Shown here: positions 16,520-35,045 of the stretch, one piece after another | Numbering within the stretch: the first letter of the stretch is position 1 | How the letters are laid out: each line of letters starts with the position of its first letter | NCBI GenBank assembly: GCA_029856235.1 | Contig: JAHQWP010000086.1 | Coordinates: 1 to 35,685, forward strand | Direction: 5' to 3' | DNA: 35,685 bases | Origin: Promethearchaeia archaeon | GTDB lineage: Archaea; Asgardarchaeota; Lokiarchaeia; Sigyniarchaeales; SOKP01 | Made by a program: the position numbers and the translations under genes | Notes under the pieces: model-generated | Seen by the model: only the letters and a program-made list of their open reading frames with translations | What the model was told of the DNA's origin: nothing | The model's database searches: none

Positions 16520-16873
16520 CTAGGTATACATTCCTTCAGGAGGAGGTTTAACATATGGAGCTCTATAGTAGTTCGAATATATTTGTCTTAAAATCTCCCT
16601 AAATCGGGTAGGATTATTTCTCCAAAGCATATCGCTCAAGTCTATATTTCTTGGATTGTAACCTGCCTGGTCATAGATTTTTCTTTTCTGAGGATCGCTT
16701 AGCGTTTCGTAGGCTTCGTGAAGTTTAATAAATTTCTCTTTGGCCTCAGAATCGGTTTTATTTAGGTCGGGATGATATTTTTTCGCTAATCTCCGATAAG
16801 CCAGTTTAATTTCTTCTTCAGAGGCGTCTTCTCCGACTTCGAGAATTTTATAAAATTCTTTATCCTTATCCAT
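16520..16873 (-). CDS. J-domain (DnaJ-like) protein
   Basis: The protein has 117 residues with an N-terminal J domain (about 5-70) containing the HPD triad at 34-36 and helix [12 protein letters not shown] domains stimulate the ATPase of Hsp70 (DnaK). There is no zinc-finger or C-terminal substrate-binding domain of full DnaJ, so this is a short co-chaperone. The last 40 residues are aromatic and proline-rich ([13 protein letters not shown]), and their partner is unknown. The ATG start has no clear Shine-Dalgarno sequence and may be leaderless. It lies downstream of selD in the same direction, with the SECIS element between them. Confidence 0.9.
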
Positions 16874-17067: not shown

Positions 17068-17135
17068 GACGCCGTTGTGCAACAGTATTCTCAATAAGCA
17101 CCCACATATGTGTTTCAGCTTATTTCATTGACGTC
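17068..17135 (-). promoter_or_regulatory. SECIS element in the selD 3' UTR
   Basis: It starts two bases after the selD stop. Minus-strand GACGTC (17130-17135) pairs with GGCGTC (17068-17073). Inside, ATGA (17125-17128) and GAGA (17089-17092) flank a perfect 7-bp helix AATAAGC (17118-17124) / GCTTATT (17093-17099), placing UGA opposite GA as in the kink-turn core of eukaryotic SECIS elements. The 18-base apical loop begins TGAAAC, offering the conserved unpaired A residues, and holds a small CAC/GTG pairing. A side hairpin GTTG/CAAC lies in the 3' strand. Location and core together support selenocysteine insertion. Confidence 0.75.
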
Positions 17136-17136
17136 T

Positions 17137-18168
17137 TTATATTTTGGTTATTTCAATCTGTTCTACTTTTTTCGATATCCTTACAAGTTCAGCTTCTTTG
17201 TTATCAATTGTTCCAACAGTCCAATTAGAAATGCCATTACTAGAGAGCGCGTTAGAAAAGTCCTCTACTTTGCTCGGATCGATAGCTAATAACATACCAC
17301 CAGCCGTTTCAGAACACAAACAACTGTCAAAAGCGTATCCTAATTCTTCAGAAAGGTTTTTCGAGAGCCTAATTGAAGGAATAGTTTCAATAATCGCAGA
17401 TAATCTTGATTTTTGAAGCATCTCCTTTAAATGCCCACTCAACCCAAAGCCTGTGACGTCAGTCATAGCGTGAATAAAAGAGAAATCGTCATACGTGTAA
17501 ATCGTTTTTACCACGCCTTGATTAGATGTTGTCATAAGATTTATAGCTAATTCAATAGAATTATTGAGCTCATTCGATGAATATTCCTCCAGCATATCCG
17601 GAAAATCTTTCTGTAACCTATACGCTGCCATAATTGCTTGTAATCCGATAGGTTTTGTTAGGATTAATTTATCTCCTTTTTTCACCCCGTGTTTCCGGAT
17701 TAAGTTGTTTTTATTTACAAAACCAGACGCTTCTCCACCAATAAGAGGCCATTCGCTATAAATTGTATGTCCTCCTACTACCTTAGAATTTATTTTTTGT
17801 TCCATGAACTTGTTAATTCCTCGGAGAATTCCTTCGGCGATATGCATTGGAGTGTTTTTATTTATAGCCAGGAACACAAGCATTCCTGAAACATCCGGAA
17901 CATTCATCGCAAAGATGTCATTTGTAACGTTACAGGCAGCGATTTGACCCATTATTTCTGGTTCGTCGATAATTGGTGTAAAGATGTCTATACTTTTCAC
18001 TTGAACCATGTCAGTATTTGGGACGGGAACAATAGCAGCATCTTCGATTAATCCTTTTAAACCAGTTTTCTCCAGTAATTGTTCTAATTGATTTGCACCA
18101 AGTTTACATGATCAACCATAGATTTTAACTTGTTTTGTCAATCGATAAGCCTTTTTTTCTTCTGTCAT
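17137..18168 (-). CDS. selD: Selenophosphate synthetase, itself a selenoprotein (in-frame UGA)
   Basis: The full gene has 343 residues and reads through a TGA at 18112-18114 (codon 19). The sequence around it is KIYGUSCKLG, matching the CGCK/UGCK active-site segment of SelD, where U19 is the catalytic residue and K22 the conserved lysine. The rest is collinear with SelD: DIFTPIIDEPEIMGQIAACN, NDIFAM, GGHTIYSEWPLIGGEASG and the TDVTGFGLSGHL motif. SelD makes selenophosphate from selenide and ATP for tRNA-Sec synthesis. The start is the ATG at 18168, preceded by GAGGTGA. Conventional gene calling would stop at TGA and begin at 18009, losing 53 N-terminal residues. The length is normal for the family. 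Confidence 0.93.
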
Positions 18169-34826: not shown

Positions 34827-35045
34827 CTATTTGTATTTAATTGAAAGCAAGAGATCATTCTTAGTGATTTTCTTTCGGTTAGCATGCATGGTAAAAGCTC
34901 GAGCTTGTTCAGTTAAACCAGTAGCTGTCTTTTCAAGATGGTCAATTAAAAGATCTACTGCGTTTCTTGCTACGATGCTTGCACCCTGTTGTTTCATAAG
35001 TCTCCGGATTGGTGACCATGCAAAACTATGTTTCTTTTTAGCCAT
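34827..35045 (-). CDS. Archaeal histone (HMf-like)
   Basis: The 72-residue single histone fold has helix 1 AWSPIRRLMKQQG, the long central helix VARNAVDLLIDHLEKTATGL with the following TEQARAFTMHANRKKI (helix 2-loop 2), and helix 3 KNDLLLSIKYK. Archaeal histones dimerise and wrap DNA. There is no long tail. The start follows GGAGG closely (minus strand), so the ATG at 35045 is firm. The following non-coding region carries its promoter. The protein is basic and of standard family length. Confidence 0.95.
   Translation of the reverse strand: MAKKKHSFAWSPIRRLMKQQGASIVARNAVDLLIDHLEKTATGLTEQARAFTMHANRKKITKNDLLLSIKYK

Follow-up and report, generated by a model that had tools for sequence, protein, structure and literature searches.

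SECIS elements generally serve the elongation factor specific for selenocysteine (Sec), in eukaryotes by way of SBP2 seated on a kink-turn. In the accounts of eukaryotic SECIS given in PMC2746813 and PMC13188914, the element is built of two helices, and form II combines a kink-turn core (AUGA/GA) with unpaired apical adenines and a ministem, all located in the 3' UTR. The sections of PMC11881835 and PMC9622424 that treat the euryarchaeal elements likewise describe a 3' UTR signal for Sec, characterized by a GAA_A bulge. In the passage of SECIS from archaea to eukaryotes, the Asgard elements are taken as intermediate. Eukaryote-like SECIS elements, mostly of type II with a ministem, have been reported in Asgard selD genes from 409 MAGs (Huang et al. 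2024, PMC11227280); in the main text of that paper the model is limited to a core, an upper stem, an apical loop, an internal loop and a lower stem, and the segment-based alignments revealed no strongly conserved nucleotide in the last two. According to the same text, no homologue of SBP2 was found in Asgard archaea. A lokiarchaeal SECIS (that of vhuU, by the plasmid table) was nonfunctional in Methanococcus maripaludis (PMC11881835), and the lokiarchaeal element is credited in the relevant part of a review with only one apical loop (PMC9499178).

The element described here resembles the published Asgard type II in most respects: it lies in a selD 3' UTR behind a gene with an in-frame UGA, carries an AUGA_GA core of the GA_[G/A]A kind, and falls within the ranges stated in the main text of PMC11227280 for the upper stem (7 bp, range 7-15 bp), the bulge (UGAAA plus GGU, 8 nt, range 4-12 nt), the ministem (3 bp, range 2-8 bp) and the apical loop (AUAU, 4 nt, range 2-6 nt). 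It shares the kink-turn core, the unpaired apical A, the ministem and the 3' UTR position with form II of the eukaryotic elements. Unlike the published Asgard model and the two-helix eukaryotic SECIS, it contains a conserved, covarying side hairpin (P3) and, in contrast to the Asgard model, a conserved and covarying short helix under the core (P1b). It also differs from the euryarchaeal type in lacking the GAA_A bulge, and from the eukaryotic type in having no match to a curated Rfam SECIS family. The k-junctions described in PMC4005666 and PMC10573300 are kink-turns turned into three-way junctions by an extra helix on the non-bulged strand. The window element has the same parts, with a 3-nt bulge, GA/GA pairs and a third helix on that strand; in the k-junctions treated there the C helix of the kink-turn and the third helix are coaxial, whereas here 2-4 bp of P1b separate P3 from the GA pairs.

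No description of a third SECIS helix was found in the papers searched, a search that covered neither figures nor the founding paper (Mariotti 2016). In the main text of PMC11227280 the word "hairpin" is absent and "junction" occurs solely in a cited title, and in the text of PMC2746813 "three-way junction" likewise appears in a reference title only. The side arm is thus provisionally regarded as new, while a eukaryote-like SECIS in Asgard selD was already known.

The selD gene and the element behind its stop codon

The window, meaning the whole stretch of 35,685 nucleotides analyzed, encodes on its minus strand a selenophosphate synthetase gene, selD (17137-18168, 343 codons), which scores 203.2 bits against the NCBIfam model TIGR00476 (cut-off 125). 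Codon 19 is a UGA (18112-18114, context YGUSCKL); it is the single in-frame UGA, and the reading frame is open on either side of it up to the stop codon TAA (17139-17137). The nearest named relatives of the protein are Candidatus Lokiarchaeota/Lokiarchaeia MAGs, the best at 90% identity. Of 227 genomes from the phylum, 121 have a SelD match with E ≤1e-30, and the majority of the SelD matches listed contain one internal TGA; in the genome of the window itself, one Sec-type selD was seen.

The whole element extends from 17136 to 17067 on the minus strand, where the covariance model R1 (the selD element model of family f1) matches with 78.8 bits and E 5.7e-20; this match arises by construction, because the R1 alignment includes the window sequence. 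The outermost model pair, A17136 with A17067, is unpaired in the window copy. The basal helix P1 is formed by GACG (17132-17135) and CGUC (17068-17071), as assigned from covariation in 77 f1 3' UTRs. Inside it, P1b pairs UC (17130-17131), immediately under the bulge, with GA (17089-17090); both strands are assigned from f1 covariation, with changes on both sides at both pairs. The 3-nt kink-turn bulge AAU follows (17127-17129), which is 3 nt long with U third in all 77 rows, and then the core GA of the 5' side (17125-17126), so that AUGA occupies 17128-17125; the GA of the 3' side, placed by the aligned f1 rows, is at 17091-17092. Above the core, the upper helix P2 joins AAUAAGC (17118-17124) to GCUUAUU (17093-17099), as indicated by the fold and by f1 covariation. 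It is topped by unpaired UGAAA (17113-17117), whose A residues are conserved in the f1 alignment, and by the ministem CAC-AUAU-GUG (17103-17112), the type II apical part, with both-side changes at two of three pairs; GGU, opposite UGAAA, lies between the ministem and the 3' strand of P2. The side hairpin P3, CUGUU-GCAC-AACGG (17072-17085), is assigned from covariation and sits on the 3' side of the element, between P1b and P1. It is separated from P1b by AUA and from P1 by no base in the window copy, and the GG of the 3' strand belongs to it. Its loop here, GCAC, is not of the GNRA type.

This layout reproduces the original prediction in most of its details. The sequence agrees with its description and lies on the minus strand, and the 7-bp helix (17124-17118 with 17099-17093), the unpaired apical adenines (UGAAA) and the ministem of 3 bp (CAC/GUG with an AUAU loop) are all present. 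The hairpin does stand right behind TAA, but with a spacer of one base (17136) where two had been counted. Similarly, ATGA (17128-17125) and GAGA (17092-17089) flank the helix as described, but only the first GA of the latter belongs to the core, the second pairing with UC (17131-17130). The proposal of a eukaryote-like SECIS on a Sec-type selD is supported; the element is not a rare second example, since selD elements of the Asgard type had already been published from 409 MAGs (PMC11227280). A better SECIS elsewhere was also sought: a descriptor of the three-helix layout, composed after the relatives and the window copy had been viewed, has its sole match on both window strands at 17068-17135 (minus) and no second site, and it gave 0 matches when the minus strand was shuffled 20 times with its dinucleotides preserved.

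The fold energy of an 80-nt segment is ordinary (-15.3 kcal/mol, z -1.06), being equalled or undercut by 28 of 200 shuffles, as is that of a 68-nt segment (z -0.69, 43 of 200). With Rfam 15, no family reached its gathering score anywhere in the window, and the four sub-threshold matches around the element (up to E 10) include no SECIS family.

Conservation of the side helix in selD 3' UTRs

The SelD search gave 149 match ends, 7 of them without a stop codon in the stretch, leaving 142 3' UTRs (82 from f1 and 60 from elsewhere). A sequence-only MAFFT alignment, A1, holds 77 of the 82 f1 3' UTRs, the first copies of L017, L024, L025, L026 and L047 having been omitted by eye. The covariation in homologous selD 3' UTRs that the original prediction depended on is present in A1. 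Imposing the three-helix structure leaves 94.4% of cells paired, against a shuffle mean of 87.2% and against 32.5-54.7% for slid structures, and both-side changes occur at 19 of 21 pairs (shuffle mean 8.7), including all five pairs of P3, whose cells are 92.6% paired, and both of P1b. The inner P1b pair is C-G in 54 rows, U-A in 19 and U-G in 3, and unpaired in none. RNAalifold recovers P1, P2 and P3 from A1 unaided. Parsimony on the SelD protein tree agrees: in a count over P1, P1b, P2 and P3, with the ministem left out, double compensatory events number 19 for P3, 14 for P2, 13 for P1 (outermost pair included) and 7 for P1b, and those of P3 are distributed as 3, 2, 3, 3 and 8 from the outside inward. 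The side hairpin had been described as an unusual feature; it is present, but as a conserved, covarying third helix and not as an oddity of the window copy.

At least four of the five P3 pairs are formed in 77 of 77 f1 rows and all five in 54, with 28 distinct stems, under a parse that leans towards pairing because the best offset was chosen per row. The loop carries a G with C or U next to it on the 3' side in every one of these rows and fits G[CU][AG]A in 49. In the core, the GA faces either GA or AA, again in all 77 rows of A1. The lower stem, GACG/CGUC in the window copy, reads GAUG/CAUC in most f1 relatives; the pattern given for selD in the main text of PMC11227280 is G[A/U]G_C[U/A]C. 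A per-sequence hairpin test, comparing the 36 nt after the core with the next 36 nt as control, was weak: median p was 0.14, 0.16, 0.18 and 0.44 for f1 selD, other selD, frhD and vhuU, respectively, and 0.73, 0.58, 0.64 and 0.77 for the controls, with cores located by the test's descriptor in 80/82, 55/60, 30/30 and 24/31 sequences.

Among the 60 selD 3' UTRs outside f1, 35 belong to family f28 and form alignment A6, and the other 25 were seen through R1, its counterpart R2, the descriptor and inspection by eye. Family f28 is probably Thorarchaeia-like, judging by the GUGA core that the main text of PMC11227280 assigns to the Thorarchaeia. Here the stop codon UGA itself forms part of the core, and P1 joins a coding 5' strand to the UTR and covaries, with both-side changes at three of its six pairs. 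The pairings are GAGACC/GGTCTC (21 rows), GAGGCC/GGCCTC (4), GAGACT/AGTCTC (3), GAAACT/AGTTTC (2) and five others once each. As one P1 strand is coding in every row of A6 (L078 and 34 more), the late selD codons are constrained by the RNA structure as well as by the protein. P1b is UCC/GGA immediately under the 3-nt bulge in 34 of 35 rows. P3 has 94.9% of its cells paired, with both-side changes at all five pairs, and its loop is GNRA in 35 of 35 (GCGA 19, GCAA 15, GUGA 1).

The comparison of models with the P3 pairs (R1) and without them (R2) took in 65 loci, of which 60 lie outside f1. In these 60 selD loci, R1 matched at the right place in 15 and R2 in 12. Among the 11 matches held in common, R1 scored higher in 8, equal in 1 and lower in 2; R1 alone adds L090, L092, L105 and L106, and R2 alone adds L080. 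Weak misplaced matches were given by both models on the plus strand of L017, by R1 in L085 and by R2 in L097; L017:2762-2833 is a training row and so constitutes no test.

Elements behind other selenocysteine genes

The identical order of parts is found in the f1 3' UTRs of 30 frhD and 30 of 31 vhuU genes (L192 was omitted from alignment A3), and it recurs behind an hdrA-like gene, a peroxiredoxin-like gene and the small selenoprotein candidate described below. The 30 frhD sequences show both-side changes at 11 of 21 pairs, including three of five in P3; P3 cells are 83.8% paired, and the innermost pair is unpaired in 11 of 27. For vhuU, the P3 strands CCC/GGG are nearly invariant and uninformative, and all both-side changes lie in P2, P1 being uncounted because the 3' end is misaligned. 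In the aligned loop columns, the P3 loop contains G and a pyrimidine next to it in 28 of 30 frhD and 29 of 30 vhuU sequences.

The frhD-type element, modelled as R3, is tied to Sec genes. R3 matches 30 of 31 vhuU loci and the TGA-bearing frhD loci of the window's own genome (L138, L139), and it matches 0 of 11 FlpD-domain loci of that genome, which are Cys-type by the absence of TGA. With 150 candidates scored, R3 gives seven matches in the same genome: behind frhD on contigs C9 and C206, behind vhuU on C115, behind a TGA-containing hdrA-like ORF on C194 (sharing 74.5% identity and the place of the TGA with the ORF that precedes frhD on C9), behind a peroxiredoxin-like ORF with TGA on C93 (Pfam AhpC-TSA), behind a small ORF on C14, and weakly at L222:774-839 on the plus strand (G000:C4; 30.5 bits, E 0.005), where an 8-bp basal helix is visible by eye and no upstream gene can be named. 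Across the phylum, at least 63 of 222 genomes contain an R3 match (22 candidates scored), 60 of them from f1 and three from other families of the class; in this search no match was obtained in f2-f4 or f28, all of which have a Sec-type selD. R3 is therefore not a general Asgard model, and the unity of the element beyond the class consequently rests on A6 and on reading of the sequences. In the genome of the window, R1 matches selD only (150 candidates scored), and on 63 frhD and vhuU loci it gave one weak match, away from any element, recovering none of theirs.

Three selD copies, L026 (G106:C64), L024 (G107:C9) and L017 (G113:C5), are followed by an element that R3 recognizes. Since these matches lie right behind selD, the three copies carry an element of the frhD/vhuU type, as though genes had swapped elements.

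The small ORF on C14 is a candidate for a new family of selenoproteins. The gene, at L219:1313-1501 on the plus strand (G000:C14:6027-6215), has 63 codons and shows, after one apparent transmembrane helix recognized by eye, the motif GGGU-PSTC. Of 65 genomes searched, 19 gave a match, at identities as low as 32% and with E 0.005-0.007 for the weakest three, and all 19 keep the in-frame TGA. An R3 element follows all 19 genes, the first of which had led to the family. From the TGA on, differences at codon positions 1, 2 and 3 number 28, 38 and 50, a weak sign, and before it, compared without gaps, 211, 113 and 205. The protein reaches the cut-off of no Pfam or NCBIfam family and is outside the seven families in section 13 of PMC11227280. 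Its P3 was read by eye; judged on pairing alone, this helix has a competitor in an alternative local hairpin between the 3' side of P2 and the nucleotides following the core.

Proposed function of the junction and genomic setting

The hairpin is very probably a real selenocysteine insertion signal, and it can be stated with high confidence that the window element is the SECIS of a Sec-type selD mRNA with the architecture of a three-way junction. During translation, the UGA at codon 19 would be read as selenocysteine and not as a stop, because the 3' UTR structure 977 nt downstream would flag the mRNA for the elongation factor specific to Sec. In the fold shown by covariation, P1 forms the base, with a 5' strand that may sit in the coding sequence in relatives, and encloses the side hairpin P3, so that the three-way junction lies directly beneath the predicted kink-turn; P1b, of 2-4 bp, is capped by the 3-nt bulge and the GA/GA pairs, which are expected to form the kink-turn in three dimensions, and P2 with its unpaired A stands above. 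P3 may stack near P1 and may assist in holding or presenting the kinked element, for example if its loop docks on P2, the ribosome or a protein. The loop carries a near-invariant G-pyrimidine and is often of the GNRA type; in the GNRA form it may make a tertiary or protein contact. Kink-turns do accept a third helix in k-junctions. L7Ae did not fold the two k-junctions tested in PMC10573300; if P3 likewise hinders an L7Ae-type protein, a different binder would be needed.

A rival reading takes the element for a plain two-helix eukaryote-like SECIS, with the side hairpin incidental in a long internal loop and without a role. The Asgard model in the main text of PMC11227280 indeed has no third helix, and 12 distant selD elements are found without the P3 pairs, against 15 with them. 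This reading is nevertheless disfavoured and considered unlikely: P3 leads the four helices counted in double compensatory events, and the G-pyrimidine of its loop recurs in selD (77/77), frhD (28/30) and vhuU (29/30), with GNRA in 35/35 of f28. The five-U run after the window element, together with its position right behind the stop codon, would suit a transcription terminator, or a 3'-end stability hairpin standing by chance after selD. In f28, however, the 3' strand of P1 is followed by varied sequence and its 5' strand is part of the coding sequence, and the frhD-type element is missing from the 11 TGA-free paralogue loci of the own genome, which makes this explanation highly improbable. 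Least probable of all, with hardly any chance of being correct, is a euryarchaeal-type SECIS: GAA does occur within the UGAAA bulge over P2, but on reading of the window copy the opposite strand there offers GGU and no lone A, and what is conserved is AUGA/GA with the 3-nt bulge.

Within the three-way-junction reading, a broader proposal can be advanced only tentatively, as somewhat doubtful overall. Asgard SECIS would be three-way junctions in the Sec gene families examined; the GNRA-like arm would supply an SBP2-type contact (to P2, the ribosome or a protein), lost towards eukaryotes once SBP2 took over the kink-turn; and the junction model would find selenoproteins missed by homology lists, such as the candidate small membrane protein. 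If the third arm is conserved, two-helix models, searches and reporter constructs omit a conserved part. Such an omission might bear on the failure of the lokiarchaeal SECIS in a methanogen reported in PMC11881835. P3 also offers a concrete part for mutation, or a bait for an archaeal SECIS-binding factor.

As for the remaining Sec machinery of the own genome, SepSecS is represented by a match of 385.7 bits, in a family that also scores in control genomes. tRNA-Sec was not found there with Rfam or ARAGORN, perhaps because of an intron, as described for Lokiarchaeota in the pertinent part of PMC9499178. The sole Rfam tRNA-Sec match listed, G000:C181:7359-7442 (L215), is below cut-off and is a tRNA-Leu according to ARAGORN. 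Two tandem selD 3' ends, each with its own element, are present in 22 fetched f1 loci (for example L005, L008 and L012), and multiple selD genes are mentioned in the main text of PMC11227280.

Two further ORFs of the window lie on the same strand as selD. The 72-residue product of 34827-35045 is presumably archaeal histone-like. A short ORF with an HPD motif (16520-16873), which we take to be J-domain-like, adjoins selD.
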